From the NCBI RefSeq assembly GCF_001882345.1, contig NZ_MINL01000001.1:3233852-3297851 (forward strand): 64,000 nucleotides of DNA. Direction: 5' to 3'. The translations under genes were made by a program, and so were the position numbers. Origin of the DNA: Halomonas sp. QHL1 (GTDB lineage: Bacteria; Pseudomonadota; Gammaproteobacteria; Pseudomonadales; Halomonadaceae). Position 1 is the first letter of the stretch. The number at the start of each line of letters is the position of its first letter. Below, piece after piece: positions 8,428 through 64,000 of this stretch. The notes below the pieces were generated by a model. The model did no database searches. It was not told where the DNA came from and saw only the letters and a list, made by a program, of their open reading frames with translations.

Positions 8428-8464
8428 GCTTGGCACAGCCCCTATTGAATGAGTGAGATTTTTC

Positions 8465-9631
8465 ATGGCCTACGATTTTGCCACGCCTGTGGAGCGACGC
8501 CACCCAGAAGGTGGCTGGGCATCGCAAAAATGGCACCGCTACGGCGACGACATATTGCCTCTTTGGGTCGCCGATATGGATTTTCGCTCCCCGCCTGCGG
8601 TCATTGATGCGCTGCAGGCGCGCGTGGCCCACGGTGTATATGGCTATGGCGAAGTGCCCACTACGTTAACAGAAACCCTATGCCAGTGGAGCGTCCATCA
8701 CTACGACTGGCCGATTCAGCCGGAGTGGCAGCAGTGGCTGCCGGGCGTAGTGCCAGCTTTGCATCTAGCTGCGTTAGCGCTGACCGAGCCAGGCGACGGT
8801 GTATTGACGGTAGCGCCGATCTACCCGCCATTTTTAGAGGTTGCAAAGCGCACCGGCCGACTACCCCAGCAGGCGATGCTGGCAGCGCCTTCAGCACCCA
8901 ATGAGCCTTGGCAACTCGATATTGCCGCCTTGGAGGCCGCTATTACGCCACGTACGCGCTTGCTGCTGTGGTGCCAGCCCCACAACCCTACGGGGCGAGT
9001 GTGGCGCCATGAAGAGCTCGCGGCGCTGGCTGAGTTAGTGGAGCGTCACGACCTGTGGGTGGTCTCCGATGAGCTGCACTGTGACCTGTTATTAGACGAA
9101 GGCGCCCAGCACCGCCCGTTAGCCGCGGCATTTCCTCAATTAGCGAAGCGCACCGTTACGCTGTGGGCACCGTCGAAAACCTTTAACCTGGCGGGCTTAA
9201 CCAGCGCCTGCGCGGTGATTCCCGACCCCGCACTGCGTGAGCGCTTTGCGGCGGCTACCAAAGGGTTACTGCCCGATGGCAACGTGCTCGGCTTGGTCGC
9301 GGCGGAAGCAGCGTATCGACATGGCGAGCCGTGGCGGCAGGAGTTGTTAAGCATATTGCGTGAGCATCGCTCGACGCTGCAAGCGCGCGTGGCGACTTGG
9401 CCGGGCGTTCACTTAAGCGCGCCGGAGTCGACCTATCTAGCCTGGCTGGATATGCGCGAGGCAGGGTTAGGTGATGCGCCCTGCAAGACGCTGCTGAAAA
9501 AGGCGGGGGTAGCGCTATCGGACGGAGCTGCCTTTGGCTGCCCCGGCTTTGTACGGCTTAACTTTGGTACCACCGCTTCACAACTGGAAGCGGGGCTGTC
9601 TCGTATGGATTCCCTGCTGAAGCGGGATTGA
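8465..9631 (+). CDS. PatB/MalY-type PLP-dependent C-S lyase or aminotransferase
   Basis: This 388-residue fold-type I PLP enzyme begins with the MalY/PatB hallmark FATPVERR and LPLWVADMDFRSPPAV. VWVVSDELHCDLL holds the cofactor-contacting Asp, and LWAPSKTFNLAGL holds the Schiff-base Lys. Family members cleave cystathionine or cysteine C-S bonds (PatB) and, in E. coli, repress maltose genes (MalY). The start at 8465 fits the family N-terminus better than the ATG at 8453. It is divergent from and adjacent to the hypothetical gene at 7996. Confidence 0.9.
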   Translation: MAYDFATPVERRHPEGGWASQKWHRYGDDILPLWVADMDFRSPPAVIDALQARVAHGVYGYGEVPTTLTETLCQWSVHHYDWPIQPEWQQWLPGVVPALHLAALALTEPGDGVLTVAPIYPPFLEVAKRTGRLPQQAMLAAPSAPNEPWQLDIAALEAAITPRTRLLLWCQPHNPTGRVWRHEELAALAELVERHDLWVVSDELHCDLLLDEGAQHRPLAAAFPQLAKRTVTLWAPSKTFNLAGLTSACAVIPDPALRERFAAATKGLLPDGNVLGLVAAEAAYRHGEPWRQELLSILREHRSTLQARVATWPGVHLSAPESTYLAWLDMREAGLGDAPCKTLLKKAGVALSDGAAFGCPGFVRLNFGTTASQLEAGLSRMDSLLKRD

Positions 9632-9647
9632 AAGCCTTCAGAAGACT

Positions 9648-10592
9648 CTAGTACAGCATCGCAAAGAGTTTACGGCGGTAAGCAACGGTCAGCGGGTGGT
9701 CGGCGCCCAGGGCGTCGAACACCTGCAGCAGCGTTTTACGCGCTGCGTCATCGTTATAGGCGCGATCCTGCTTCATCAGCGCCAGCAGCGCTTCTAGCCC
9801 TTCATCGTAATGACCGTCAGCCACTTGGCGCAGGGCGCGCTGGTACTGCGCTTCGCTATCGGTGCGATCGCCCAGTGCCGCAATCTCCTCGGCTGAGAGT
9901 GCCTGCTCGCTAAACTCAATGCTGGCGCGTACGCCACGAGCGGGAGCCGCATCGCGCTCTTCGGGGGGCAGGTTATCGAGTACTTCACGGGCTTCGCTGC
10001 CGCGCCCTTCAGCCACCAATACCCTAGCGAAGGCTATTTGGTAAGCGTAGTGTTCGGGGTACTGGCCCATCAGGGTTTGATATATCTCGCGGGCAGCGGC
10101 GGTGTCACCGGCTTTAAGCGCTTCTTCCGCCTGCTCTTCAGGTGTGGGTGGCGCTTCGCCGGGGGCTGGGAAGTAGCGATTGAGCCACTCGCGCACCTCT
10201 TTCTCCGGCAGCGCACCCTGGAATCCATCTACCAAGCCGCCCTGGCTAATCAGCTTCACATCGGGCACTGAACGCACGCCCAGTTGGCCGCCGATTTCGG
10301 GGTTTGCTTCAATATCGAGCTTGCCGAGCAGGAAAGCGCCCGCGTACTCAACCACCAGCTTATCCAGCACCGCGAGGAGAGTGCTGCTGCCTGCGTTGGA
10401 AGGCGAGTAGCAGCCCAATAGCACCGGCACCTGCATGGACGCTTCCAGCACCTGCTGAATATTGCCAGCATTGAGCTCGATAATGACATCTTCAGGGCGC
10501 ACCGCCGCCTGTTCAGCGTTAGGCGCGGTAGCGTCAGCACTTCCGGTATCCGCCGTAAGCGGCTTACCTGAGCGGGGATCAATAATCTGCAT
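9648..10592 (-). CDS. ybbN: Thioredoxin/TPR co-chaperone, YbbN (CnoX)-like
   Basis: This protein of about 314 residues has a thioredoxin-like N-terminal domain (DVIIELNAGNIQQVLEASMQ, then VPVLLGCYSPSNAGS and LGKLDIEANPEIGGQLGVRS). TPR-like helices follow (EEALKAGDTAAAREIYQTLM and LEALLALMKQDRAYNDD). E. coli YbbN/CnoX has this plan and acts as a holdase that passes clients to GroEL and DnaK. The redox motif WCxxC is replaced by CYSPSNA, so the protein cannot act as a dithiol oxidoreductase. The start is uncertain: 10592 and 10607 are both possible. Confidence 0.9.
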   Translation of the reverse strand: MQIIDPRSGKPLTADTGSADATAPNAEQAAVRPEDVIIELNAGNIQQVLEASMQVPVLLGCYSPSNAGSSTLLAVLDKLVVEYAGAFLLGKLDIEANPEIGGQLGVRSVPDVKLISQGGLVDGFQGALPEKEVREWLNRYFPAPGEAPPTPEEQAEEALKAGDTAAAREIYQTLMGQYPEHYAYQIAFARVLVAEGRGSEAREVLDNLPPEERDAAPARGVRASIEFSEQALSAEEIAALGDRTDSEAQYQRALRQVADGHYDEGLEALLALMKQDRAYNDDAARKTLLQVFDALGADHPLTVAYRRKLFAMLY

Positions 10593-50244: not shown

Positions 50245-51627
50245 ATGCCTATCAGTGTTTTCGACCTTTTTAAGATTGGAGTAGGCCCCTCCAGTTCCCA
50301 TACCGTCGGGCCCATGCAGGCGGCTTTTAAGTATGTCACAACCCTGCGCGAAAACAGCCTGCTCGATGAGGTAGGGCATCTTGAAGTCCATCTTTATGGC
50401 TCGTTATCCGCCACAGGTATCGGACATGCCACCGATCACGCGATTATTATGGGATTGATGGGTGAACGCCCTAGCACAATAGATCCCTCGATTATTGAGC
50501 CAGCCATTCAGGCGCTTAAAGAGAGCCAGTCATTACAGCTTGGCCGACAAAAAGAAGTGACGTTTGTTTGGGAGAGTGACCTTTATTTTCATGAAGAGAG
50601 CTTGCCGCATCACCCTAATGCCATGAAGCTGGCGGCTTTTACGCATCAGGGCGACTTGGTGTATGAAAATACCTATTACTCGGTGGGCGGCGGCTTCGTG
50701 GTTGAACAGGCCCAGGTGGATATGCCGCTGGACGATTTGGGTGGCGTTACCATTCCTTACAACTTCGATACGGCAGACGAGCTCTTGGCGCTATGTAAAA
50801 AAGAGCAGCTAAGTGTCAGCCGGCTGATGCTGGAAAATGAGAAAGTATGGCGGACGGAGGAGGAGGTCAGAAACGAACTGTGGCGTATCTGGCAAGTGAT
50901 GTGTGAATGCATCGACAATGGATTAACCCACGAAGGGATACTGCCGGGGGGGTTAAAAGTTAAGCGTAGGGCTAAGTTACTTCACCAGCGTCTTCAAGCA
51001 GCAGAGCAGAACGATTGTCTGATAGCCTCAACCTTTTCAGCGATGGAGTGGGTGAACATTTTTGCCCTCGCCGTTAACGAAGAGAATGCCGCAGGGGGAC
51101 GCATGGTAACGGCGCCCACCAACGGCGCTGCAGGCATTATCCCAGCCGTTTTACACTACTATATGAAGTTTCAGCCCAACGCCTGTGAGAAAAACGTGGT
51201 GGATTTTTTGCTGGCGGCAGGCGCCATTGGCATCCTCTGTAAGAAAAATGCCTCGATCTCCGGCGCCGAAGTAGGCTGTCAAGGGGAGGTCGGATCGGCT
51301 TGTGCCATGGCAGCAGCTGGCTTGGCCGATGTAATGGGGGGAACACCCGAACAAGTCGAGCATGCGGCTGAAATCGGCTTGGAGCACAATTTAGGATTAA
51401 CCTGTGATCCCGTTGGAGGGTTGGTTCAAGTCCCTTGTATTGAGCGCAACGCTATCGCCACGGTAAAAGCGATCAATGCCGCTCAGATGGCATTACGCGG
51501 CGATGGGACTCACTTTATATCGTTAGATAAAGTGATTCGTACCATGCGCGATACAGGGAGAGACATGTTGGATAAGTATAAAGAAACATCCAAAGGCGGA
51601 TTAGCCGTTAATGCTATTGAGTGTTAA
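50245..51627 (+). CDS. sdaA: L-serine ammonia-lyase (Fe-S type)
   Basis: This 460-residue protein of the single-chain bacterial type begins [20 protein letters not shown] and has the catalytic-domain blocks [14 protein letters not shown] and [20 protein letters not shown], with Cys ligands for a 4Fe-4S cluster. It deaminates serine to pyruvate and ammonia. It completes the path betaine-glycine-serine-pyruvate. It is probably a separate transcription unit and is followed by a hairpin. Confidence 0.94.
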
Positions 51628-51695
51628 TTGTAAGTAACTAGGTTTCCTGGTGATCAAGTGAAAAAAACCGGCAAGCTAGTAGACAAACAAACACA

Positions 51696-51731
51696 AAAAA
51701 GGCAGATCAGTAAGTAACTGATCTGCCTTTC
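51696..51731 (+). terminator. Terminator after sdaA
   Basis: A long stem AAAGGCAGATCAG / CTGATCTGCCTTT (about 51697-51730) with a short loop. It lies about 70 bp after sdaA, just before the tRNA-like fragment. Confidence 0.75.
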
Positions 51732-51738
51732 AAAATAT

Positions 51739-51778
51739 TGGTAACGGGGACCGGATTTGAACCGATGACGGTTATGAG
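51739..51778 (-). pseudogene. 3' fragment resembling initiator tRNA-fMet (probable att site)
   Basis: On the minus strand the stretch runs CTCATAACC, then GTCATCGGTTCAAATCCGG, TCCCCGTTACCA. It matches the 3' part of initiator tRNA-fMet from the CAT anticodon loop through the T-arm (GG-TTCAAAT-CC) to an encoded CCA. About six bases of the anticodon stem/variable loop are missing and there is no 5' half. It therefore cannot be a working tRNA. Its place beside a recombinase gene suggests one end of an integrative element. Confidence 0.6.
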
Positions 51779-51790
51779 ACTGATGATTTA

Positions 51791-51830
51791 AGGACATTTA
51801 TTTTGTCCTAAAATGGTTAAAAATGGCTTT
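51791..51830. repeat. Hairpin and 10-bp direct repeats upstream of the recombinase
   Basis: The inverted repeat AGGACA / TGTCCT (51791-51796, 51804-51809) is followed by AAATGGTTAA and AAATGGCTTT (51811-51820, 51821-51830), two copies with 10-bp period. Such short repeats beside an att-like site could be recombinase arm-type sites. Confidence 0.45.
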
Positions 51831-51887
51831 AAACCTTATGATAGAGCGGTTTTCGGCAAATGCCGCTTCTGGACGTAAGGGTTATTA

Positions 51888-54800
51888 ATGACACGGGAAG
51901 ACATTGGAGATTGTCACAGCCAGCAACTGGAAGCAGTGACCTTAAGTCTCGGGAAGCGGTATCGTAAGCTAGTCGCCTGGGCGCATGATGACGGTTTGCT
52001 CGATGTGCTACAGGTCATTTATCACGCCCTAGGACTAAGTCCCCGCAATGACGCGATTGCCAATCTTGTAAGGGAATGCTCTCACCCTGAGTCGGTCGAG
52101 ATTCTCTCGCTTTGGGCGGACGACCCGATAGTCAATGAACTGCAGCGGTTTACTAATCATTTCAATGCATCGCCAGACATCTCTCGTGACTACTCACAAG
52201 TACCTCATGTCGGCACCGTAGAACAAAACAAGCGTCAGTTTCAGGAAGGGGGTGTAAAAAATAAAACGTTTTTGATTACGTTGCTCACTAATCCGCTGGC
52301 TGATGGTAAGGCAAAGTCGACCGAAGGCTACCTGCTGTTTTGGCGTCGTCTTTTGCGTTTATGGTTTGTGGTGCACGCAGCACAGCGCATTGCTCATCAA
52401 AGATGTATCGCGGACCGCAATATCAGTGAAGTAAGCCGCTTTATGACCTTAGGGCCCTACGATGAAAAATGGCGTGTGATAGACGCGCTTTTAAGGCGGT
52501 GTCGCAGTTTTGTAGGGCAGCATGAGCCGACACTTGAGCGGGTTAACGATGCGTTCATTTTTGCCGCTGATGAGGTGCGTCTTGATTATCCTGATGACAA
52601 GAGCTACAGCCGCTTTTTCAACGCCATTACTGCTATTGCGCGTCAAGATGTTAATCCCATTAATCATGAGGCAATAGCATCACTCTTACGTATTGATCGG
52701 TTCTTGCCGTCTGCCGTCCCGTTGGTGCATCAAACTGATGAGCATAGTGAAGATACCGAGTACGAATTTTACGCGTATCCAAAAGAAGAAGATGCCGATC
52801 AAGACCCAGAGGATGAGGGGGTCTATGTTGCAAGGGTAGATCCCTCTGATAGCGATGCGGAACAACAATTAGCTAGCCGAAGCTATTTTGTACAAACGGC
52901 AGAAGCATCGCATTTTTTGCCATGGAGCTGGGAAAAGCTACTACCGCCAGAGCGAGAAAAGCTGCTTAGCTGGGTGGATCAATGTTTATTTTCAACAGAT
53001 GAGGTAGAGCAACTCGGCGCCGTGATGGTATGGCTATCAGTTCGCTTCTCACGCTCCCTCTATTTTGCTGCACAGTTTCAGATAGATGATGACTCGGGTG
53101 ATGAATGGACAGTGACACGTGATTTTTCATCGATAGCGCGGAAATCACCTCGACGTGGGAATGCCTGGCAACCCAATAGCGAATCACTCGACTATGTCCA
53201 CTCAATAAGAGAAGTGCTCTCCGTTGAACTGCCGGAACAGGTCACTGCGATCCTCCAGCGAGCCGCTAACGCGAAGCAAGCTTCGCTCGCCACGTTAGGG
53301 GATATGTGGGAGAACACTCTGCCTTTGGAACGTTGGTTTTATCAGCAGACCCAATTACATTTTCCCCGAGTAACAAGCGCTAAATTGGCGCAGGTCTGGG
53401 GACAAGCCGTCTTTGATAACACCCACGATCCCCATTTGGCGCGGCTTTTAACCGCTTACCCCAACGCAGGGTTGCCAGGCGCATGCAGCTATGCGACATG
53501 GGATATAACTGCGATTGAAAAAGGGCTGTCTCTATCGCTCTCCACCTCAACATCATTTCCCCCTTCCGTGAATCTGATTGGTAGCCGTCTCTCGCCAATC
53601 ACGACGGTGTTGCGTCAAGAGATTGCTAACGCCAGGGCAATGGTTGAAGACAGCGCCGATGGTGACCTCATTCACTATCACAACGTCCTGGCTCAATACT
53701 GTGTCATGGGACTTTATGCAGCCTCGGGCGGCCGATATCTTAAAGACCCATTTGAGTCGCTGGGACACTTCAACCAAGCAGCACGTTGTTTATATCTTAA
53801 CGATAAAATCGACCAAGGGCGCCGAAGTAGCCGGATGGTGCCGTTACCAGAAAGAGCGATTGAGCTGTTGCAGTGTTACGTGACGCATTTGCAATGGCTG
53901 GCTCAAACACTCAAAAGCGAAAACGCTGCGCTGGCAGGTGCGATACATCAAACGTTGGATAATAACGATGTACCAGCACTTCCGCTGTTCTTCTTGTTGG
54001 ATGATTCGCTGGTATGGCACTCCATGACAAGCACCGACGTGCCCGGGGTGCCTCTCTTTCAGTGGCCCTTGCCCGGCAACGTGTTTCGACATCGCTATGC
54101 CCAACAGCTGCGTTATTTGAAGGTGCCGGCAGAAGTGGTCGATGGGTGGATGGGGCATGCGGAGCGTAGTGTGGCGACCTACGGCGATTTTTCGCCGCGT
54201 TGCTGGACAGACGATGCGCACAGTTATGCCGATGCTGTGAACACCGCCTTTGATGAGTTAGGTTTTTGTCCTCCCACGCTGCCTTCGGTGTTGCCTGCAT
54301 TAACGCCTCCGCCGAGCAGTGCTACGGATGAGCACTATCAAAAGGCACTGGCGAACCGTCGGTTTGGTCAGTGCCAGCGAGAATACGAAAGACGCCAAAC
54401 GATGGTGCGAGAACGTAAAGCGGCTGAAGCGGATATCGCAATATATATGAGTCGCAGAGCATGGGAGGAGCTGACACAGGACGATATGGATGTGTTAGTT
54501 CAGCGTATGCTGCATCGAAGTGGTTCGGTGATACATACCTATGCATCGCTACGGTTGTCAGTGCTGTTGCGGTGCTTGAAAGAGGAAGGTAACCGGCACC
54601 AGCACGGTATCAGTAAGCGCGTGGCAGAGGCGTCGGCTGAAAAATCGTTACTGTCCAGCAAGGCTTCAGAGGCCCTTTTATTGTGGCCAGAGCTAAAGCG
54701 GTGGGCGGATAACATTCGAGCGAAAGTACTGAAAGCGCATTTTTCTAAATTGAGCGCTTTGAGCGTTGGGGCGCTTTTGTTGTGCTTAGAAAAACGCATT

Positions 54801-57281
54801 AGTTATCAACGTATGCTGCTTGATGTAGCCCGAGGGCGTAATTATCGACTCATTCAGCACAAGCAAGAGTATTTGCTTGAGTATAGCGAAAGCCTGGAAC
54901 TGGACAATTACTTCGCACCCGTTCAGCGCCACCGTATCAGCTATAAGACGGCATCTTTGCTAGCCGCCGGGCAGCAAATTCAAAAAGAAATCGATCTAAA
55001 CAAAGTGCTGATGCCAGCCACTATCACTCCACCCCCTGATGCATTGAAAGGGCATTTGCCGAACATAGCGGAGACAAGCGTTCAAGCCTTGTTTGCAAGC
55101 TTGGGTGACCTGATGGATCAAGTAAATCTCTTATCACTGCCTGGCATGGTGGCAGGCATGCTAGGTGGACGTGTTCTTTCGACGAGCTTACCGCTTCACG
55201 ATGAGCTACGGATTCGAGAGGGCGTTAGGTTAGCATTTCCTACCCAAGGCGATAGTGCAGACAGTGAACTCAATGTGTCGGCCACAAAAACGTCTCGTTG
55301 GCGCCATCTCAACAAAGTGGAGCAGCAGGCCAATGCGCAACGGCTTTATGAAGAAGTCCAAGAGGTTCTGAAAGGGTATACAAAGCGGCAATTTCGCCAG
55401 GGGGCTTCGCAAATTGATAAGCTAAGCAGCGCATACGACGGGCACGTCAGTACCTGCGTCCTGCTATTAGTGAGGTGGATGAGTTTTATTATGCGGCGAG
55501 GCAAAGTCGGCAAACGCAACGACTATGCGCAAAGCTCATTAACGCGGTATTTCTCAGCACTGAAATCAGCATTCGCTGAGATTGGCTACCAGGTGGATCT
55601 CCTCGATTTTGACGAAGAGGAGATCACGCACCTTTACGCTAAAATGCTGACGTTCGTCGAGCTGACGTCGCAAGATGCGCAGTACTTCAGTCATCGGTTG
55701 CGCGATTTTCATGCGTGGGTGGAAACGTTGGGGGTGGCAAGCCCTGATTGGCAAGAATTAGCTATCGAGAATGATCGCCGCAGCGTTCGCGCAGGGATGT
55801 TGATACAAAGTGAATACCTCCTGTGTCAGTCCGCTTTGCAATCAAAATGGCAAAGCCAACACGATGAGAAATTTCTGCTGTTAGGGTTTGTGCTGTTACT
55901 GACATTTCGATTTGGGCTGCGCGCGCAAGAAGCGATAGGGCTAGAGCGCAATGACTGGTGTGAGCATTACGATATCCGTTGGGTGCTGGTGCGTGATAAC
56001 GCGCAGCGAAAACTCAAAAGCGACGCCAGTCGCCGCGCAGTGCCACTGCTTTTTGCACTAGATCCAGCCGAAGAGGATCTCATCAATCATGTGTTAAGTC
56101 GCTTTCACTCGCTGGCGGGTAACGATTCAAAACGCCCTTTATTGGGTGAACTTTACGAGAGCCAAGTCAAGCTTGTTCACTGGGCAGCGCAGGTGAGCCC
56201 GGTGTTGATTCAGTTACTGCGCAATGGGACGGCGAGTAGGGGAATGACGCTGCACCATTGCCGGCACGCGTTCTATAACACCTTAGCGCCATCGTTATTT
56301 GGGATACAGACACCGCTCACAGAATCGATAAGCGGTCACCTTGATCCACAGTTCATACGTCAGCAGGTGTTGGGCCACTACAGTCATGTATCGCGACGCA
56401 GCGGTATGGCCATGGCGAGATTGATGGGGCATCGTCATCCGCGTACTGGATCGTTAAATTACAGTCACGTGCTAACTGATTGGGCGGATCAACTAACCCC
56501 CGTACTTCATGTGCGTGCAAGAAATATTGATGGTGTTTTAAATACCAAGACATTGTCGCGTATTGAAATGCCGGCGCTTGAAACAACCGATATTTCCGTT
56601 CGTTACACTCGTTTAAATTTTATGGTTTTATGGAAAGTACTACGGTTTGTAGGGCTGGGCATGAGCTACGAGCGTGCAGGGTCGCACGTTAATCTTAATC
56701 CAGAGGATACAGAAGTCATTGCAAAAATCGTTCGCGAAGCCGAATCACATATGCGATTTAAATTAAAAGGGGAAAGCGATGCTTGGGTAAGTGGGGCGAA
56801 CCATCCCAATATTTTATTACGTCAAGTAGGCGAAAAGGCGTGGCGCCGACTTATTGAGCATGTAACAGGGCTAGAAGAGAGCCGGTTGGTGAGCTTGGAT
56901 GATAGCGTCATTTTGGGTGAGTTACCTTTTTTAATCAGTAAGAATCGGCAGCTACTAATGAGTCATCAGCATCACTGCTCCTTTCTTATACAGGTATTTT
57001 CTCTGTTTAATGTGCCAAAGCGATATATACAGATTGCCTTAAAAAATGCGCCTGAAGGGCTCGTCAAGATGCTAAAATCAAATGGCCTTTATCAGCAAAA
57101 AGACACTAACACATTCCAACTGGATCCGTTTCCGATTTTTGTTGATAATGTGCTTGATCGACGCCAAGAATATGTCGGTATTGGCCTTAAAAGATCCCCA
57201 GAGGGAACAATACGCAACAGTCATGAACTGTCTGTAGCGGTGCTGGCTTGCGGACTCTTTGCCACGCTAAAGAAAGCTTAG
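51888..57281 (+). CDS. Giant protein with two tyrosine-recombinase signatures
   Basis: This 1797-residue protein contains two separate DNA breaking-rejoining signatures. In the first half they are R616 (ASGGRYLK), a basic hairpin near K640-R649, N731-x2-R734-H735 (NVFRHRYA), H757 (WMGHAE) and Y765, with the spacing of lambda-type integrases. In the second half they are R1345 (FGLRAQEA), K1375/K1377, H1456-x2-R1459-H1460 (HHCRHAF), H1515 (MGHRH) and Y1525, with an insertion of about 30 residues between R and the second H. An acidic linker (about 285-330) and a 270-residue C-terminal region have no recognised domain. Usual integrases have 300-450 residues. GC is lower than in neighbours. It starts beside the tRNA-like remnant. 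A long recombinase of an integrative element is the best reading; the exact family is not known to me. Confidence 0.8.
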   Translation: MTREDIGDCHSQQLEAVTLSLGKRYRKLVAWAHDDGLLDVLQVIYHALGLSPRNDAIANLVRECSHPESVEILSLWADDPIVNELQRFTNHFNASPDISRDYSQVPHVGTVEQNKRQFQEGGVKNKTFLITLLTNPLADGKAKSTEGYLLFWRRLLRLWFVVHAAQRIAHQRCIADRNISEVSRFMTLGPYDEKWRVIDALLRRCRSFVGQHEPTLERVNDAFIFAADEVRLDYPDDKSYSRFFNAITAIARQDVNPINHEAIASLLRIDRFLPSAVPLVHQTDEHSEDTEYEFYAYPKEEDADQDPEDEGVYVARVDPSDSDAEQQLASRSYFVQTAEASHFLPWSWEKLLPPEREKLLSWVDQCLFSTDEVEQLGAVMVWLSVRFSRSLYFAAQFQIDDDSGDEWTVTRDFSSIARKSPRRGNAWQPNSESLDYVHSIREVLSVELPEQVTAILQRAANAKQASLATLGDMWENTLPLERWFYQQTQLHFPRVTSAKLAQVWGQAVFDNTHDPHLARLLTAYPNAGLPGACSYATWDITAIEKGLSLSLSTSTSFPPSVNLIGSRLSPITTVLRQEIANARAMVEDSADGDLIHYHNVLAQYCVMGLYAASGGRYLKDPFESLGHFNQAARCLYLNDKIDQGRRSSRMVPLPERAIELLQCYVTHLQWLAQTLKSENAALAGAIHQTLDNNDVPALPLFFLLDDSLVWHSMTSTDVPGVPLFQWPLPGNVFRHRYAQQLRYLKVPAEVVDGWMGHAERSVATYGDFSPRCWTDDAHSYADAVNTAFDELGFCPPTLPSVLPALTPPPSSATDEHYQKALANRRFGQCQREYERRQTMVRERKAAEADIAIYMSRRAWEELTQDDMDVLVQRMLHRSGSVIHTYASLRLSVLLRCLKEEGNRHQHGISKRVAEASAEKSLLSSKASEALLLWPELKRWADNIRAKVLKAHFSKLSALSVGALLLCLEKRISYQRMLLDVARGRNYRLIQHKQEYLLEYSESLELDNYFAPVQRHRISYKTASLLAAGQQIQKEIDLNKVLMPATITPPPDALKGHLPNIAETSVQALFASLGDLMDQVNLLSLPGMVAGMLGGRVLSTSLPLHDELRIREGVRLAFPTQGDSADSELNVSATKTSRWRHLNKVEQQANAQRLYEEVQEVLKGYTKRQFRQGASQIDKLSSAYDGHVSTCVLLLVRWMSFIMRRGKVGKRNDYAQSSLTRYFSALKSAFAEIGYQVDLLDFDEEEITHLYAKMLTFVELTSQDAQYFSHRLRDFHAWVETLGVASPDWQELAIENDRRSVRAGMLIQSEYLLCQSALQSKWQSQHDEKFLLLGFVLLLTFRFGLRAQEAIGLERNDWCEHYDIRWVLVRDNAQRKLKSDASRRAVPLLFALDPAEEDLINHVLSRFHSLAGNDSKRPLLGELYESQVKLVHWAAQVSPVLIQLLRNGTASRGMTLHHCRHAFYNTLAPSLFGIQTPLTESISGHLDPQFIRQQVLGHYSHVSRRSGMAMARLMGHRHPRTGSLNYSHVLTDWADQLTPVLHVRARNIDGVLNTKTLSRIEMPALETTDISVRYTRLNFMVLWKVLRFVGLGMSYERAGSHVNLNPEDTEVIAKIVREAESHMRFKLKGESDAWVSGANHPNILLRQVGEKAWRRLIEHVTGLEESRLVSLDDSVILGELPFLISKNRQLLMSHQHHCSFLIQVFSLFNVPKRYIQIALKNAPEGLVKMLKSNGLYQQKDTNTFQLDPFPIFVDNVLDRRQEYVGIGLKRSPEGTIRNSHELSVAVLACGLFATLKKA

Positions 57282-57283
57282 TT

Positions 57284-58150
57284 TTACGTATCTAACATTT
57301 CTTCAGTCTCGCTGATAAGTGTAAAATCATCTATTTCTATTAATGTGTTGTCCACTTTCAGTTCTGTTAATGTATAAGAGGGTTTTTGCTTCATTTTTTT
57401 CGTGATCTTTTTTGCTTTGAAGCGGACATAAGATTCTTGATAACTGGCTTCTAAAAATACCTTGAAGTCATCGGGGTGGGTGACGGTAAAATGCCTTACG
57501 TCACCTGCTTGTTGCAGACTACCTTCAATGACGCGAAGTTCTATCCAATTTTGAGTTCTTGAAAAACCATCAGGAAAGCCAATACCCTCGATATCAATGC
57601 TTGTTTTTTCCTCATCGTCGAGCGTAATAAAGTCAGAGTTAACGCAAAGAATCGACTCTTTTTCAATAGCGTCAATTAAGCTAAAACCATTCGCCGGAAT
57701 TTTTGTATTTTTCCAACTTGATAGAAACATATTGCGGCGTTCGTCTAGAGTTTCGAGTTCTTCTTTACTTAACCAAGATAGATCAAGATTTTGACTGAAA
57801 AGGTCGTCATTAGGAAGAAGCTGTTGAATAATAAATAACGCCAGTGTGCGTGATTTTTCTATGATTTCTTGGGTGGTTTTTGGATCTTTGAGAGTGTCTA
57901 GAAAGAAAACAGCACCATTTTTATCGTATGCTTTTTCTGTGCTGAAAAATATGGTTTCATAGTTAATAGCGACACCATATTCTTCTTCGGTAATACAGTT
58001 AAGACTGGCAGCAAGATATTTGATGATTTTTTCAATAGCAGAGTTTGTGATTTTATTTATATCAAATGAAAAATAACTTTTATTTACACTTTTGATGGCG
58101 CCAACATTAGGTGCAAGAATGATTACCTGGTTTTCTTTTAATTTTGACAT
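57284..58150 (-). CDS. AT-rich orphan gene, convergent with the giant recombinase
   Basis: This 288-residue, lysine/glutamate-rich soluble protein (SKLKENQVIILAPNVGAIKS, FKAKKITKKMKQKP) has no membrane segment and no recognised motif. Base composition is far more AT-rich than the host genes, pointing to horizontal origin. Its stop lies two bases from the stop of the giant recombinase, so the two genes probably moved together. A function cannot be stated. Element-borne nuclease inhibitors, regulators or defence proteins are only possibilities. Confidence 0.7.
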   Translation of the reverse strand: MSKLKENQVIILAPNVGAIKSVNKSYFSFDINKITNSAIEKIIKYLAASLNCITEEEYGVAINYETIFFSTEKAYDKNGAVFFLDTLKDPKTTQEIIEKSRTLALFIIQQLLPNDDLFSQNLDLSWLSKEELETLDERRNMFLSSWKNTKIPANGFSLIDAIEKESILCVNSDFITLDDEEKTSIDIEGIGFPDGFSRTQNWIELRVIEGSLQQAGDVRHFTVTHPDDFKVFLEASYQESYVRFKAKKITKKMKQKPSYTLTELKVDNTLIEIDDFTLISETEEMLDT

Positions 58151-58243
58151 GGTAGCTCCACTGTTATTGACTATATATACATACAGATAAACTTAGCAGC
58201 TGTGCCATGTCGTCAATAGACAGAATTACCGCGTTTTTTGATG

Positions 58244-58545
58244 CTATATCACTAACTTAAGTTCATGGATATGATTTGGGACTATTGCATTTTTCTCATT
58301 AAGGAAGGGGAGTGGGTCAGAACCAGCAAAGACAGCTGGCCGTAAAGAATTGATGGCACGATGCTGAGCACTTCGCGTTTGCTCCCCGACATCCAGCGTG
58401 AAGCCGACACGGTGCCTCATATTTTTTAAGTATTTGCAGAGCATGTTGCTGAAAATTTGATGTGTAACGTTTTTGCCTACCGGGCGTTTGACTGACCGAG
58501 CCTAACGGGTGTCTAGAATATCCGGGGCGATTCAACAATGGCATA
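58244..58545 (-). pseudogene. IS3-family remnant (left end and start of orfA)
   Basis: On the minus strand TTGAATCGCCCCGGATATTC (near 58545-58520) resembles the terminal repeat of many IS3-group elements. After it comes a frame reading RQKRYTSNFQQHALQILKKY, the start of an IS3-type OrfA HTH. The frame decays soon after and no orfB is present. Adjacent frames (for example VGFTLDVGEQTRSAQHRAIN) may be other decayed pieces. The rest of 58151-58657 shows no gene. Confidence 0.55.
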
Positions 58546-58657
58546 TGCTCGTTTGACTTTATGAAAAGTTGAAGTGGAGACGACAATTTGCCTCTATAAT
58601 TGTTGTCCTCACCTGAACTTGACATAATTCACAAAAAGCTTTGCAAAGACAGTTTTG

Positions 58658-59569
58658 TTAAGTTTTATCATGCCTTTCAAATGGAATTATTTTCATTTTC
58701 TCTGCTAAATAATCAATGAACATTCTTAGGCGTATAGGAATGTTCTGCTTATAAGGATAGACAGCATATATATCCGCGTTAGGGAGTTGATAGTCGCTAA
58801 GTATCTTCTTTAAAGACCCTTGCTTAATATGATGATAAACATCCCATTCCGCCCTTATTGCAATACCGTGCCCCTTTAAAGTCCAGCTTAGAACGCTTTC
58901 GCCGTCATTGGAACTTAAGTTTCCTCCGACCCGAACATGGTAAATTTGATCTTCTTTTGTGAAATGCCAGTTACCGTAAGTTTCGTCATTTTGTCTAAGT
59001 ACTATACAATTGTGATGAGAGAGTTCATGAGGTGTTGTGGGTTCATTTTTAGTTGCAAAATAACTAGGTGAGGCACACAAAAAACGTCTATGTGAGGCAA
59101 TTTTCCTAGCGTGTAAACCAGAGTCTGGTAGTGAACCGAACCGGATCCCGATATCAAAGGAGTTGGTGATTAAATTCAAAGGATGATCTGATAGATGCAG
59201 CTGGCATTCAATTTTAGGGTGCTCTTCTATAAAGTCTGAAACGAACTTTGAAATATACTTTCTCCCGAATCCGAATGGTGCATTAATTCTGATTGGGCCT
59301 TCGGCTTCGTCAGTCTTTTGACGTAATGCTAAGCTCATTTCTTCTAAAGTTGATGTAACTTTTCGGGCGTATTCCAAGTATATCTTTCCATTAGTAGTAA
59401 GGCCCATAGAGCGAGTTGATCTTGAAATAAGCTGGCAACCAATATTTTTTTCAATATTAGAAAGACGCTTGCTGGCAGCAGCGGGAGTTATATCAAAATC
59501 CTTAGCCGCTTTAGATAAACTTCCAGATTGACAAATTAAAATAAAAAATTCGAAATCATTGCTAACCAT
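58658..59569 (-). CDS. LysR-family transcriptional regulator of the hydroxy-acid module
   Basis: This 303-residue protein has the N-terminal HTH FFILICQSGSLSKAAKDFDI, then TPAAASKRLSNIEKNIG, and an effector domain (IRINAPFGFGRKYISKFVSD). It is divergent from the tartrate dehydrogenase gene with a 131-bp gap and probably controls that operon. It is more AT-rich than the host average. The inducer is likely tartrate, malate or glycerate-type. Confidence 0.9.
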   Translation of the reverse strand: MVSNDFEFFILICQSGSLSKAAKDFDITPAAASKRLSNIEKNIGCQLISRSTRSMGLTTNGKIYLEYARKVTSTLEEMSLALRQKTDEAEGPIRINAPFGFGRKYISKFVSDFIEEHPKIECQLHLSDHPLNLITNSFDIGIRFGSLPDSGLHARKIASHRRFLCASPSYFATKNEPTTPHELSHHNCIVLRQNDETYGNWHFTKEDQIYHVRVGGNLSSNDGESVLSWTLKGHGIAIRAEWDVYHHIKQGSLKKILSDYQLPNADIYAVYPYKQNIPIRLRMFIDYLAEKMKIIPFERHDKT

Positions 59570-59700
59570 GATTGTTAACTCTAGGTTGTTTCTGTATTAA
59601 CTGATAGTATATTGAAGTCATTTCCACTTGTCATCTAATGTCTGAAGGGCCAAGCAAACGTATTTTCTTATAAAAAAATATATAGGTAGGAGCATTATAT

Positions 59701-60762
59701 ATGCGTAGTCATCGTGTTGCAGTTATCCCTGGTGATGGAATCGGCCTCGAAGTGATTGAGGCAGGCAAGCAAGTGCTAGAAACGTTGGCGAAAAAAAGTG
59801 GAGATTTCCATTTTGAATTCGAAGATTTTGACTGGAGCTCTCAGCGCTACCTTAGCCAGGGTGAGTACATTCCGGAAGGAGGGCTAGAAAAGCTGTCAAA
59901 ATTTGATGCTATCTACTTTGGTGCGGTGGGTAGCCAAGATGTTCCCGATCACGTTTCCCTTTGGGAGCTTAGACTTGCTATCTGCCAAGGCTTTGATCAG
60001 TACGCGAATGTACGTCCAGCTAGGGTACTGCCGGGTGTTAACAGCCGCTTAAAAGGCGCTGAAGAGATTGATTGGGTAATTGTTAGAGAAAATAGTGAAG
60101 GTGAATATTCCGGTAACGGTGGCCGAGTTCACCAAGGACACCCTGAGGAAGTCGGTACTGAGGTATCTGTTTTCACACGAAAAGGGATCGAGCGAATCCA
60201 TCGTTTTGCGTTCAAACTTGCACAAAGCCGCCCCCGTAAAAAACTGACTTTAGTCACCAAATCTAATGCTCAGCGGCACGGTATGGTGCTATGGGATGAG
60301 GTGTTCTTTGAAGTCGCAAAAGACTTCAAAGATGTAAAAATTGATCGGGAGCTTGTGGATGCTGCGACTACTCGCATGGTTCTCAAGCCGGAGACGATGG
60401 ATGTCATTGTTGCAACCAACCTTCACGCAGACATTTTATCCGATTTAGCGGCAGCTCTTTCAGGCAGTCTAGGTATAGCGCCCACCGCAAACCTGAATCC
60501 TGAAAGGACTTACCCTTCCATGTTTGAGCCAATACATGGGTCAGCTTTTGATATTGCCGGACAAGGTATTGCCAACCCAGTGGGGTCCTTTTGGACAGCT
60601 GCCATGATGCTGGAACACTTGGGGGAAGCTACTGCGGCTGAAAGACTGATGGCGGCCATTGAGCGGCTGACTGCCTCTGGCTTACAAACAAAAGATCTCG
60701 GTGGCTCTGCGAATACGCGCGATGTTACTCAGGCTATTTGTTCTGATATTGAACAACAATAA
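59701..60762 (+). CDS. ttuC: Tartrate/D-malate dehydrogenase (isopropylmalate dehydrogenase family)
   Basis: This 353-residue protein starts RVAVIPGDGIGLEVIEAGKQ. It has the substrate-site WELRLAICQGFDQYANVRPA and VIVRENSEGEYSG, the metal-binding ATNLHADILSDLAAALSGSL and the C-terminal MFEPIHGSAFDIAGQGIANP. TtuC/DmlA oxidise tartrate or D-malate with NAD+ and Mn/Mg; TtuC can also give glycerate. It is the first gene of a module with glycerate kinase and a TRAP transporter. The start has AGGTAGGAG upstream. Confidence 0.92.
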   Translation: MRSHRVAVIPGDGIGLEVIEAGKQVLETLAKKSGDFHFEFEDFDWSSQRYLSQGEYIPEGGLEKLSKFDAIYFGAVGSQDVPDHVSLWELRLAICQGFDQYANVRPARVLPGVNSRLKGAEEIDWVIVRENSEGEYSGNGGRVHQGHPEEVGTEVSVFTRKGIERIHRFAFKLAQSRPRKKLTLVTKSNAQRHGMVLWDEVFFEVAKDFKDVKIDRELVDAATTRMVLKPETMDVIVATNLHADILSDLAAALSGSLGIAPTANLNPERTYPSMFEPIHGSAFDIAGQGIANPVGSFWTAAMMLEHLGEATAAERLMAAIERLTASGLQTKDLGGSANTRDVTQAICSDIEQQ

Positions 60763-60768
60763 GGGCAT

Positions 60769-60804
60769 GGCCGTGACTTCAAGAATTGTGTTCTTGAAGC
60801 GGCC
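60769..60804 (+). promoter_or_regulatory. Intercistronic hairpin between ttuC and glxK
   Basis: The perfect 9-bp arms CTTCAAGAA / TTCTTGAAG (60777-60785, 60791-60799) are flanked by GGCCG / CGGCC (60769-60773, 60800-60804) with a 3-nt bulge. No U-run follows, so mRNA stabilisation or attenuation fits better than full termination. Confidence 0.55.
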
Positions 60805-60870
60805 GAGAGCATCAGTGGTGTTGTTTCGATGCTCAATGCCTACGGCTTTCCTCTGTAGAGGGGATAGTAA

Positions 60871-62058
60871 ATGAAAATTGTCATTGCTCCTGATAGTTAC
60901 AAAGGCGCGTTATCAGCTCAGGCTGCAGCGGTTGCGATGGAAAAAGGTATCGCCCGTGCTTTCCCTAGCGCAACCACTATTAAGTGCCCCATGGGCGATG
61001 GGGGAGAGGGTACGCTTGATGCACTAGTCTCCTCTACAGGAGCTGCCGTATTCCATAAAGAAGTTGCCGATGCTTATGGTGGATCGCGGCGAGCCGCGTG
61101 GGGATGGCATAGCGCCAGCTCTACAGCATATGTCGAGTTGGCGGAAGCTTGTGGCCTTGAGTATGTCGATGTCGTAAAAAACTCCATTTACAACAGCACT
61201 ACTTACGGAGTTGGTCAACTAATTGAACAGGCTTTGAATAAGGGCGCTAAGTCCCTTGTCCTAACATTAGGAGGAAGTGCAACTAATGATGCTGGGGCTG
61301 GGATGCTAGTTGCCCTAGGTGGGAAGCTTCTTGATAAAGAGGGTGGTGAACTTCCTCCAGTGGCTGAGAGCTTACATAAGCTGGAGAAAGTTGATCTCTC
61401 GGGATTAGATCAACGTTTAAAATATTTACAAGTAGTAGCAGCCGTTGATGTTGATAATCCACTTTTGGGTGCTAATGGCGCCACTGCGATATATGGCCCC
61501 CAAAAAGGCGCCTCGCCGGCGGATGTTTCTGTCCTTGACGCATTGTTAGGCAATTTCTCCCAAAAAGTCAGCGAAGTGACTGGCGTCGATGTCAGTGACT
61601 TTCCAGGTGCTGGTGCCGCTGGGGGAATGGGATATGCAGCAATGGCTTTCTTAAAGGCAACGCTTAAGCCTGGTATCGACGTTGTAATGGAACAAGTCAA
61701 TTTTAATAATCATCTTGATGATGCTGATTTGGTCATTACGGGAGAAGGTCGTTTAGATGGACAAAGCTTGGCAGGTAAAACGCCGATTGGCATTGCCAGA
61801 GTTGCCAGTGCAAGGGATATACCCGTTGTAATCATCGCTGGACAGTTAGGGGAGGGGTGGCGTGCATCATACTCACAAGGTGTTTCTGCTGTATTTTCGC
61901 TAGTAGATGGGCCAATGAGTTTAGCGGAGGCTATTGAGAGAACCGATGAGTTACTCAGTGATAGATGTGAATCAATCGTTAGGCTGTTTCATGCTAGTTC
62001 GCTAAGCCACTGTAAATTAACCAACTCAATAAAGGAGGGATTTATTATATATTCGTAA
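60871..62058 (+). CDS. glxK: Glycerate kinase
   Basis: This 395-residue protein begins MKIVIAPDSYKGALSAQAAA, the glycerate kinase (GarK/GlxK) signature, with TIKCPMGDGGEGTLDAL, LTLGGSATNDAGAGML and ADLVITGEGRLDGQSLAGKT. It phosphorylates glycerate to 2- or 3-phosphoglycerate. A C-terminal tail of about 15 residues (SIKEGFIIYS) goes beyond the usual end, perhaps from loss of an earlier stop. AGGGGA lies upstream of the start. Confidence 0.9.
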   Translation: MKIVIAPDSYKGALSAQAAAVAMEKGIARAFPSATTIKCPMGDGGEGTLDALVSSTGAAVFHKEVADAYGGSRRAAWGWHSASSTAYVELAEACGLEYVDVVKNSIYNSTTYGVGQLIEQALNKGAKSLVLTLGGSATNDAGAGMLVALGGKLLDKEGGELPPVAESLHKLEKVDLSGLDQRLKYLQVVAAVDVDNPLLGANGATAIYGPQKGASPADVSVLDALLGNFSQKVSEVTGVDVSDFPGAGAAGGMGYAAMAFLKATLKPGIDVVMEQVNFNNHLDDADLVITGEGRLDGQSLAGKTPIGIARVASARDIPVVIIAGQLGEGWRASYSQGVSAVFSLVDGPMSLAEAIERTDELLSDRCESIVRLFHASSLSHCKLTNSIKEGFIIYS

Positions 62059-62112
62059 TATTTTTTGATTATTGGTTTTAATTAATAACTACAAATTAAT
62101 GGAGTACTTATT

Positions 62113-63087
62113 ATGAAAATGACAAAAGTTGTAGCAGTCGTATTGCTTGGAGGCACCGTTGGAGGTGCTATCGCTGACGAAGGAAAAGAGAACTGGCCCG
62201 AGAGTCTTTCTATTGCGACGGGTAGTCAAGGCGCCACTTATTATATTTATGGTTCAGGCTGGGGGAACCTTGTCGGTGAAGCAACCGGGTCGACATTTGG
62301 TGCTGAAGTAACAGGCGGTCCGGTGCAGAACGTGACCCTTGTCCAAATGGGGGAAAGTGAGTTCGGCATGGTGACGACTGGCCCTGCCTTTCAAGCATGG
62401 AATGGGGAAAGTGAGCTTGCGCCTGGCGTAGAGCATAAGGACATTCGCGCTGTTTTCCCGATGTATCAAACAGCTCTCCAAGTTATTTCGCTTGAGGGGT
62501 CTGACATTGATTCAATTTCCGATCTGGATGGAAAGACAGTTGGTATTGGGCCTGCTGGTGGCACAGGCGATATGTATTTTCCCCAACTCTTCGAAAAGTT
62601 GGATGTTGAAGTCGAAACTCGAAATGGTGGTGCTGCCGATCAAGCGAGCCAGGTTCAAGACGGCTTAATTGATGCCTTTGCATTTGCTTCGGGTATTCCC
62701 GTGTCGGCTTTCAGCCAGCTTGAGGCTCAGGCAGACGTTAATATTTTCTCATTCTCCGAAGAGGAAATGAGTAAATTCCTTGATGACTACCCAGAGTTGA
62801 GCCAGGGAACGATTCCTGCATCCGCATACACCAGCCTTGATGAAGACGTGCCGGCTATCTCATTGTGGAATTTTGCCATTACTCATAAGGATATGTCTGA
62901 ATCCTTCGTCTATGAGGTTACTAAGACGGTAATGGAAAGCCAGGAGAGGATGTTACAAGTACACGGCTCGGCACGTGAAACGATACCCGAAAACGCTGAG
63001 CACAATTCCTTCATTCCGTGGCACCCAGGTGCGGTTCGTTGGTTCGAAGAGAACGGCTACGAGATTCCTGATGACCTACGTGGCTGA
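62113..63087 (+). CDS. TAXI-family TRAP transporter solute-binding protein
   Basis: This 324-residue secreted protein has a signal peptide (VVAVVLLGGTVGGAIA) and the mature start SLSIATGSQGATYYIYGSGW, typical of TAXI solute receptors. It captures an organic acid for the fused TRAP permease that follows. A hairpin lies between the two genes, which suggests higher expression of the receptor. It shares the likely substrate of the module, tartrate or glycerate-type acids. Confidence 0.92.
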   Translation: MKMTKVVAVVLLGGTVGGAIADEGKENWPESLSIATGSQGATYYIYGSGWGNLVGEATGSTFGAEVTGGPVQNVTLVQMGESEFGMVTTGPAFQAWNGESELAPGVEHKDIRAVFPMYQTALQVISLEGSDIDSISDLDGKTVGIGPAGGTGDMYFPQLFEKLDVEVETRNGGAADQASQVQDGLIDAFAFASGIPVSAFSQLEAQADVNIFSFSEEEMSKFLDDYPELSQGTIPASAYTSLDEDVPAISLWNFAITHKDMSESFVYEVTKTVMESQERMLQVHGSARETIPENAEHNSFIPWHPGAVRWFEENGYEIPDDLRG

Positions 63088-63099
63088 TTATTAATTATT

Positions 63100-63128
63100 C
63101 AATGCGCCGACTAACAGTTGGCGCATTG
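63100..63128 (+). terminator. Hairpin between TAXI receptor and permease genes
   Basis: The 9-bp stem CAATGCGCC / GGCGCATTG (63100-63108, 63120-63128) is followed by TCTCTT. It could reduce read-through to the permease. Confidence 0.6.
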
Positions 63129-63173
63129 TCTCTTCGAACTAGCGGGTAACTGTAACCTCCAAGGTGACCAGGA

Positions 63174-64000
63174 ATGACTCAAGATACTCTACTTCAAGGA
63201 GCAGAGGAGAAGATCGGTACTGATAGCGTCTCCGATGTTCCCCTCGCTCATAATGAGCGCGAGTTATCCGGATTGCTCGGTAAAACAGTATTCATTGCAT
63301 GTGTACTATTTACCGCGATGCATCTTTATGCGCTCAATGTTTCACCCATCGAAACCTGGACGTTTCGCATTCTCCACGTAGCTGGAGGCTTAGCCGTTGG
63401 GTTTGCCATCACCGCAGCGATTAGCCTGGATCGCAGCGGCGGAGAAGTACGCGTTACCCAGCGAGAATGGTTTGCCCTAATACCTGCGATAGCCGCTGTT
63501 GGCTACGCTAGCTTCTGTTTGGTCTTTGCCTGGTTTCAGCGCGATATTCAGGGAACGATCCCTTCCAATTGGGTTCTGGCTCATTTGAGTTGGGCGCTGG
63601 TTGTGGCGAGTACCATTGCGATTATCGGCAGTTGGGTTGGGCGAAGCTCAAGTCATTCGATACATTGGGCTGATATCGTACTGATTATTGCGTCGGTTCT
63701 GGTCGCTGGGTACCTTGTGCTAGTGCTCAACCGTTGGCGTATGACGGCGGGTATGCCTATGGCCAACCAAAATGATTTTCTTGTGGCTGCGGTGGGCGTT
63801 GCGCTGATTATGGAGCTGACCAGACGTGTAGCAGGACTGGCTCTGATTGCTATTACCGCAGTGTTTCTAATCTATGCATTTGCGGGGCCTTACTTGCCAG
63901 GTCTTCTTGAGCATCGCGGTTATACGGCATCACGTTTTTTCACCTACCTCTACACTGACAATGGCGTTCTTGGACCCACTACCGCTGTCTCCTCCACCTA
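63174..64000 (+). CDS. TRAP transporter fused permease (partial, truncated by window end)
   Basis: The frame from ATG 63174 stays open to the window end (at least 275 residues). It gives TRAP 4TM/12TM-fusion-type text: an acidic N-terminus, then helices such as KTVFIACVLFTAMHLYALNV and LHVAGGLAVGFAITAAI. It couples sodium flux to uptake of the substrate bound by the TAXI receptor 87 bp upstream. The 3' part is not in the window. Confidence 0.88.
   Translation, partial: MTQDTLLQGAEEKIGTDSVSDVPLAHNERELSGLLGKTVFIACVLFTAMHLYALNVSPIETWTFRILHVAGGLAVGFAITAAISLDRSGGEVRVTQREWFALIPAIAAVGYASFCLVFAWFQRDIQGTIPSNWVLAHLSWALVVASTIAIIGSWVGRSSSHSIHWADIVLIIASVLVAGYLVLVLNRWRMTAGMPMANQNDFLVAAVGVALIMELTRRVAGLALIAITAVFLIYAFAGPYLPGLLEHRGYTASRFFTYLYTDNGVLGPTTAVSST

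Follow-up and report, generated by a model that had tools for sequence, protein, structure and literature searches.

The 64,000-nt stretch of the Halomonas sp. QHL1 genome analysed here (the window; contig NZ_MINL01000001.1, positions 3,233,852 to 3,297,851) encodes a protein of 1797 amino acids (aa), which we call F. The F family is a real and well conserved family of giant fused tyrosine recombinases, an end component of islands at the initiator tRNA gene (tRNA-fMet) and a variant of the multi-recombinase elements. We moderately favour the reading that F is the large recombinase subunit of a tRNA-fMet-integrating island, a covalent fusion of two proteins, Y and Z, that acts with a canonical integrase (Int). 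The observations underlying this are the fold of F and the conservation of its residues, its colinearity with Y and Z, its position at the island end, the split and restored tRNA gene, an island-free form of the locus and the pairing with Int.

Three predicted recombinase folds in one polypeptide

The initial annotation had placed the open reading frame (ORF) of F at 51888-57281, and there it is, with an ATG start and without interruption; the active-site residues that it named (N731, R734, H757, Y765, R1345, H1456, R1459, H1515 and Y1525) also lie where it put them. The GC content of the gene is 0.50, against 0.58 in window positions 1-51800. Scans of F with Pfam, NCBIfam and PADLOC matched no family, a PDB sequence search with both halves of F as queries gave no match, and PHROGs returned a single integrase match (residues 1335-1462, E 8e-7), in the second domain alone. 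A literature search, by titles and abstract openings and with few subscription papers covered, found no fused giant recombinase like F.

The catalytic-domain fold of the tyrosine recombinase superfamily was found by Foldseek, VIA and profile comparison in three regions, D0, D1 and D3 (Table 1), and models and profiles together point to three recombinase folds in F. The model of the N-terminal half has a mean predicted local distance difference test score (pLDDT) of 70.5 and a predicted template modelling score (pTM) of 0.42 (alignment of 17 rows), and that of the C-terminal half 73.8 and 0.43 (18 rows). VIA matched the N-half model to tyrosine recombinases or topoisomerase IB at two places, ~565-792 and ~343-549. 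For D1 the match was archaeal Xer over 426-792 (Z 14.7, root-mean-square deviation (rmsd) 2.8, 164 aligned); for D0 the matches were topoisomerase IB and Cre, with Z of 8.3-10.9, 'middling' on the scale of the tool. With the C-half model, Foldseek found XerH over model residues 343-734 (~F 1132-1523; E 7.8e-6), and VIA found XerH (Z 14.7, rmsd 15.3, 274 aligned) and a staphylococcal integrase (Z 13.3, rmsd 3.5, 168 aligned).

In profile comparisons, D1 matched Xer with a probability of 94 and D3 matched an Int-plus-Xer profile with 99. D0 matched D3 (probability 85, E 6e-6, 152 columns; 77, E 2e-5 and 56 columns in the reverse direction) and Xer (26, E 7e-4, 159 columns). Residues 20-255, 800-925, 925-1115, 1140-1295 and 1560-1797 all gave probabilities of 13 or less, with E 0.002 or worse. 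A fourth recombinase fold at 925-1115 was considered and rejected: its profile support was nil and VIA hardly covered that part. Both recombinase regions of the initial annotation are thus present in one chain, and a third, degenerate fold at ~335-545 had been missed.

Conservation of the active sites

Residues were compared in a divergent set of 34 sequences (10 from the F family and 24 others) and in an F-family set of 28 rows, partial ones included, from a fast alignment. The superfamily signature R-K-HxxR-H-Y is complete in D3, where R1345, K1377, R1459, H1515 and Y1525 occur in 34/34 divergent homologues and H1456 in 32/34; the earlier description of this second site as canonical holds. 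The signature is incomplete in D1, which keeps R616, K640, R649, R734 and H757 in 34/34: the HxxR histidine is always replaced (position 731 is N in 30/34, Y in 3/34, D in 1/34 and H in 0/34) and position 765 is tyrosine in 9/34. Judged by these residues, D3 alone has the canonical active site in full.

The first site had been read as the same signature with one histidine changed to asparagine. Its residues are as described, with R616 and K640 to be added, and N731 turns out to be a trait of the Y family rather than a local change. The conservation of both putative nucleophiles had been raised as a check, and a first set not conserved among homologues as grounds for abandoning the idea. Y1525 is conserved and Y765 is not; the R, K, R and H of the first set are invariant and its tyrosine is not. 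In the F-family rows, the named residues other than Y765 are kept wherever a letter is present, save for one T at 1456.

Homologues and natural gene boundaries

The genome of QHL1 has one copy of F; at another place in it, F residues 511-785 and 1174-1464 are matched by two ORFs lying side by side. Matches at E 1e-5 or better were found in 22 of 97 genomes of relatives, 11 of which have F itself, full or partial. A scan of a genome collection yielded 17 loci. They belong to species of Vreelandella and Halomonas, to Marinobacter, to Thalassolituus and to two metagenome-assembled genomes; judging by these names, the genus of the window would be Vreelandella. A draw of genomes from the order gave any match in 29/390, including additional full-length F proteins and more distant ORFs of 1238-1916 aa with both halves or part of them; the draw from the class gave any match in 4/369, the own genome counted, and no further full-length F. 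The plasmid search returned one record with a weak match, the phage search no match and the viral contig search none that was confirmed.

At ten loci (L042-L051) an adjacent gene pair is seen: Y encodes ~800 aa and Z ~1000-1160 aa, and in most cases a small gene precedes Y (Y or Z is short or broken in L042, L044, L047 and L051). Y matches F 320-791 (probability 99.5, E 2e-22) and Z matches F 1079-1613 (probability 99.9, E 5e-31), in the same order as in F. Both are found on a Vibrio plasmid and on a Ketogulonicigenium plasmid, and a Sphingobium plasmid has Z plus a shorter piece of Y. F therefore appears, from these sequence matches, to be a fused pair of giant recombinases made elsewhere from separate neighbouring genes. 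The earlier proposal of a fused dimeric recombinase with one site altered was right as to the fused pair, because the profiles match regions of F to two separate adjacent genes, and needs amending from two folds to three. Internal duplication was rejected as the source of the two halves: comparison of F with Z gave no second strong match in the first half, so that fusion or fission of two genes fits better.

Three further loci (L173-L175) have their gene boundary between D0 and D1. At each, a first ORF of 539-567 aa precedes a second of 1238-1350 aa, which starts just before the D1 pocket and continues through Z. A D0 profile from which these loci had been left out detected D0 in each of the three short ORFs (probabilities 95.7, 81.8 and 98.0, over 201-206 columns), and each short ORF has a tyrosine in the column of Y535 of F, i.e. 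the conserved tyrosine and the conserved pocket are encoded on separate proteins. As this cut differs from that between Y and Z, the position of the joint varies between lineages. The three layouts (one ORF of 1755-1916 aa, the D0/D1 split, or Y plus Z) have a constant total length of 1734-2001 aa despite their differing joints. A midpoint-rooted tree of the 34 sequences requires three changes among the three states, and a single change between fused and split, so it does not show repeated fusion.

Relics of the F gene were seen beside a Y-Z pair (L043:10211-11007, in G029) and 3 kb from a tRNA-fMet gene (G001:C1:323351-323647); since they remain there, islands have probably been lost at these sites. 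A 157-aa protein beside the L043 pair, considered as a third partner, proved to be such a relic, with further remains of F behind it.

The tRNA-fMet island and its junctions

The island spans 51 kb, and F starts 118 bp in from its left end. The terminator seen upstream of F recurs ~51 kb downstream with an intact tRNA-fMet gene on the minus strand; the target gene is thus split, restored at one end and left as a fragment at the other, as in tRNA-targeting islands. A second intact tRNA-fMet gene lies elsewhere in the genome. The flank beyond the intact tRNA is conserved within the genus; the query matched in 60 of 61 genomes, some by the tRNA part or the flank alone. Among 30 tRNA loci fetched, two have sdaA, the left neighbour of the island in the window, close to the tRNA: in G056 (L092) 180 bp separate its end from the terminator of the intact tRNA-fMet gene, and in G033 (L084) it is followed by a short right-end relic and then the tRNA. 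By sequence, these are island-free forms of the locus in the window.

The position of F recurs. In 5/5 genomes that have F and this tRNA-fMet on the same contig (G000, G025, G027, G031 and G040), F points at the tRNA, 46-92 kb away, and the core GGTTATGAG stands upstream of F in 21 of the 24 loci with at least 512 bp upstream (L056 and L061, with too short an upstream, are left out, and L189 is the same place as L165). As background, 26 of 1266 stretches of 710 bp from F loci contain GGTTATGAG, the real ones counted. Measured against a complete tRNA-fMet rather than each genome's own intact copy, the tRNA part of the left junction is whole in one locus (L055), lacks the 5 nt next to the core in nine (the window, L035, L052, L053, L057, L065, L161, L165 and L167) and lacks more than 5 nt in ten; one locus (L054) has an hlyD-like flank. 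The loss always stops exactly at GGTTATGAG, leaving the island side fixed and the host side variable. It extends from 5 nt to the whole 3' part of the tRNA (window position 51770; L059, L062, L063, L066, L160, L162-L164, L166 and L188). In L054, F adjoins hlyD-like coding DNA; the intact allele, seen in G005, has GTCGATGA in common with it as far as the junction, so this would be a secondary site or a later rearrangement.

TGTCACA/CGTCACA repeats lie inside the right end (window-equivalent 102829-102860, in L078) and upstream of F in L053, L059 and L065; it is possible that they are recombinase binding sites. A T-arm-like stretch, GGATTTGAACC, at window-equivalent 68494 (L077, minus strand) resembles the 3' fragment of another tRNA and is perhaps a nested insertion.

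A canonical integrase at the right end

The right end of the island carries Int (426 aa; Phage_integrase, Arm-DNA-bind_2 and SAM-like matches) and a 94-aa ORF beside the tRNA. Int was found at 64% identity or more in 18 of 20 genomes with F, and, of the 11 genomes of the genus that have F, 10 carry it next to the tRNA (G025, G040 and G050 among them). There were also 14 more distant Int matches, of at most 57% identity; with a fragment among them left out of the check, Y and Z were within ~5 kb in 11. At L053, Int, the 94-aa ORF, a tRNA fragment and F follow in a row, an arrangement that would be expected of a tandem array or a circular junction.

A possible active site shared between D0 and D1, or an inactive half

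D0 keeps little except Tyr535 (codon 53490-53492), with R389 also kept within the F family. In an L-INS-i alignment of the divergent set, Y535 is present in 34/34 and is the sole invariant residue beyond the two pockets, the other invariant columns besides the start being R616, D639, K640, R649, R734, G756, H757 and ten in D3. It is likewise invariant in an --auto alignment of the same 34, and is tyrosine in the 26/26 F-family rows having a letter there. When D0 was forced onto Xer, Y535 coincided with the Xer nucleophile and position 524 with its histidine. We tentatively suggest that the Y half is a tandem recombinase with one active site split between two domains, D0 giving Tyr535 and D1 the pocket of R616, K640, R734 and H757. 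The basis of this suggestion is conservation together with the natural gene boundaries at L173-L175, and it is partly sensitive to the choice of alignment method.

Several results weigh against this role for Tyr535. It was not invariant in --retree 2 alignments, either of the same 34 or of the 24 sequences outside the F family, unlike the D1 and D3 residues, which were invariant in all alignments compared. The D0 profile failed to match the Int-plus-Xer profile (probability 0.4). In forced alignments, Y535 fell on L1470 rather than Y1525 with D3, bordered a gap when D0 was set against the Int profile, and lay three residues beyond the Y765 position with D1; R389 paired with R616 of D1 and not with the arginine of Xer. 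The N-half model has low confidence at 523-542, too low to give the distance between Tyr535 and the D1 pocket.

A somewhat more doubtful reading is that the first half is dead, a DNA-binding recombinase-fold part like Tfp of the SE elements or GinC of the GInt elements, so that each F would have one active and two inactive folds and would exchange a single strand pair. A motif-less protein of recombinase fold is documented for SE and GInt elements (PMC10214605). The rarity of Tyr765 and the constant absence of the HxxR histidine agree with a dead half, and variable loss at the left junctions would be compatible with half-site repair, although these junctions possibly reflect later decay. It is harder to reconcile with R616, K640, R734 and H757 in all 34 homologues, which a merely structural domain need not keep, and with the invariance of Y535 in the accurate alignments. 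The occurrence of D0 and its tyrosine in separate genes at three loci makes a dead half slightly less probable and a site shared by D0 and D1 slightly more so.

A proposed role of F in the island

In the mechanism that we propose, the initiator tRNA gene would be the attachment site of an integrative island. F would bind near its own island end, next to the core GGTTATGAG, and D3, as a complete tyrosine-recombinase site, should cleave and rejoin DNA. The D0-D1 half would most likely be a second, unusual site or a structural partner; in the former case D1 would supply the R-K-R-H pocket and D0 or D1 the tyrosine. F would work with the arm-binding Int and its 94-aa neighbour, joining both ends for integration or excision.

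A number of points weigh against this proposal. Movement of the island, catalysis by F and its joint action with Int are inferred from the observations given above, and a canonical Int beside the tRNA could integrate the island alone. One F genome (G032, 89% complete) gave no Int match, and another (G098) has an Int of only 53% identity. Of the 14 distant matches to Int, one is 12 kb away from Y-Z and another, at a contig end, has no Y-Z; for L043-L046, which have a second type of Y-Z pair, the 20 kb fetched contained no Int. The geometry is inconstant: F and Int occupy opposite ends, and in the related modules Y-Z is on the Int side. No core was seen upstream of F in three of the 24 loci (L058, L060 and L068), and a loss of 5 nt of tRNA, the commonest form, or more is unexplained by a simple conservative exchange. 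The pTM of both half models is just 0.42-0.43, and Foldseek gave no match of E 0.001 or better for the N half, the top one being XerH (E 0.058, probability 0.96).

Some of these points would also be accounted for if Int alone moved the island and F were a passenger: a regulator, the enzyme of a second mobile element or a defence protein of recombinase fold. Int, with its Phage_integrase and Arm-DNA-bind_2 domains, has the classical position next to the restored tRNA, F is at the other end of the island, some Y-Z pairs have no Int nearby, and the cargo is rich in defence genes. We nevertheless consider a passenger unlikely. The Int subfamily accompanies F or Y-Z at most of the places checked, the end position of F by the core recurs although the cargo differs, divergent homologues retain the canonical D3 residues, and PADLOC has no match to F.

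It is less likely still that, within the F family, D1 works as a normal second site through Y765 and tolerates N731. Y765 is at normal spacing from H757, and it is tyrosine in 25 of the 28 F-family rows; the other three (L058, L063 and L066) have tryptophan, and outside the F family tyrosine is found in just 1 of 24 homologues. Because of the count of 9/34 and the three tryptophans, Y765 is probably not a general nucleophile. Finally, rarity (0 full-length matches besides the own genome among the 369 genomes of the class) is the only point for the view that the long ORF stems from faulty assembly or annotation, or from a fusion by chance in a single strain. This view can be dismissed, as many genomes have uninterrupted ORFs of comparable length and F is not a chance ORF, since full-length homologues (~1800 aa, 34-69% identity) occur in several genera.

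Neighbouring genes and cargo

The features of the locus are collected in Table 1. The 288-aa neighbour of F has homologues that diverge down to 15% identity, and no meaningful Pfam family was found for it among 12 proteins scanned. The cargo of the island comprises a catabolic set (LysR, tartrate dehydrogenase, glycerate kinase, TRAP transporter, enolase and pyruvate kinase) and a defence set consisting of a type I restriction-modification system with PsyrA and PsyrT, two GmrSD proteins, a WYL protein, a HerA-like ATPase and two dynamin-like proteins. The PsyrA/PsyrT pair (PADLOC E 7e-178 and 0) is nested in the restriction-modification set (L078:6823-8169 and 8076-10184, minus strand; window-equivalent 90823-94184). 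The GmrSD-type proteins are adjacent (L078:1219-4667, window-equivalent 85219-88670), and the first has a DUF7834 C-terminus replacing GmrSD_C. The HerA-like ATPase, a 327-aa unknown and the two adjacent dynamin-like GTPases form a cluster (L077:11153-18567, window-equivalent 75150-82567) that is perhaps an undescribed defence operon.

Table 1. Features of the F locus in window coordinates, except where stated
Feature	Position	Strand	Remarks
sdaA (L-serine ammonia-lyase)	50245..51627	+	adjoins tRNA-fMet in two island-free relatives
Left junction, host side	51693..51769	-	terminator and 3' part of tRNA-fMet; 5 nt next to core missing
Core GGTTATGAG, 9 bp	51770..51778		fMet anticodon-loop sequence; meeting point of island and tRNA
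Left part of 51-kb island	51770..64000		continues past window end
F, fused Y-Z tyrosine recombinase, 1797 aa	51888..57281	+	ATG start, uninterrupted ORF
D0, degenerate recombinase/topoisomerase IB fold (predicted), aa 335-545	52890..53522	+	VIA, profile comparison, alignment
D1, recombinase fold (predicted), aa 560-795	53565..54272	+	R616, K640, N731, R734, H757; Y765 variable
D3, canonical recombinase domain (predicted), aa 1295-1545	55770..56522	+	R1345-K1377-H1456xxR1459-H1515-Y1525
288-aa protein, no known family	57284..58150	-	convergent with F; homologue in 11/19 F loci
Intact tRNA-fMet, right end	G000:C1:3336780-3336856; window-equivalent 102929-103005	-	ARAGORN: Met, CAT

Relation to known mobile elements

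Islands of the P4/lambda type in tRNA genes have an arm-binding integrase, with the split target restored at the integrase end and a 3' fragment at the other; the island described here differs in having a second, giant recombinase at the end of the displaced fragment. Gamma-mobile-trio (GMT) islands are mobile and rich in defence genes (PMC12715929). Membership of this group was rejected: the best score with recomb_GmtY, a model of 441 positions, was 21.8 bits in 8 genomes, against a cut-off of 340. No GMT model was among the NCBIfam hits of F, three Y and four Z proteins, GmtZ and GmtX having been searched solely within the whole NCBIfam library.

The SE elements encode an ordinary, a motif-less and a large tyrosine recombinase plus a small protein at the element end (PMC10214605), of which Int, the D0-D1 half, the D3 half and the 94-aa protein would be the counterparts, paired by analogy. 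They differ in having four co-directional genes, with Tfp of 581 aa and IntB of 720 aa in SE-6945, and a median size of 15.7 kb against the 51 kb of this island, which has a tRNA-fMet target and motif-less and active parts that are fused. The co-directional intA-tfp-intB-srap layout at one end is not that of the island, with F at the left and Int at the right. No similarity to Tfp or IntB was found with one- or four-sequence profiles, for which the controls were weak (Tfp-Xer failed, IntB-Xer probability 14). SE elements also have imperfect inverted repeats of 13-19 bp and a 6-bp spacer; the comparison of the ends of this island covered the tRNA repeat. The GInt elements (ginABCD) are islands that carry at one end three recombinases, of which one lacks a residue of the motif, together with a small protein, and the cargo lies behind; their operon is co-directional and their target an ABC transporter gene in pseudomonads (PMC5385486). 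Compared by description rather than by sequence, they differ from the island in that F and Int are at opposite ends and the target is tRNA-fMet, and the gene layout of the island is not a ginABCD operon with three separate integrases. In both SE and GInt elements the ordinary and large recombinases, the motif-less fold and the small protein are all needed (PMC10214605, PMC5385486, PMC9345347), and by analogy the module described here looks to work like them.

Several tyrosine recombinases also act together in RIT elements and Tn554 (PMC10214605). In the same source, the archetype RIT proteins have 315-410 aa, all with the tyrosine, and no fusion is mentioned (PMC10214605). Compared by description, the sizes of F and Int fall outside the RIT pattern, in which three recombinases of 315-410 aa come together with inverted repeats at the termini. 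By analogy with SE, GInt and RIT elements, F is best read as one recombinase subunit in the mobility module of the island.

Multi-recombinase elements such as SE, GInt, RIT and Tn554 pose the puzzle of why several recombinases, some seemingly inactive, serve one reaction. That the same parts are made as one or two chains by lineage, with a varying cut, suggests that they work as one unit, one-to-one where fused. A conserved tyrosine in a pocket-less fold beside a pocket without a tyrosine makes a shared active site directly testable. In Flp the active site is common to subunits, the tyrosine being given in trans; those subunits are identical, whereas in F two fixed domains would serve as donor and pocket. 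If the shared site is real, F would have two working sites of different make, one domain-shared and one canonical, in fixed order on one polypeptide, and would be a covalent, asymmetric counterpart of Flp-like cleavage in trans. The F family as a whole also marks defence-carrying tRNA-fMet islands, for which this protein raises no flag in Pfam, NCBIfam or PADLOC.

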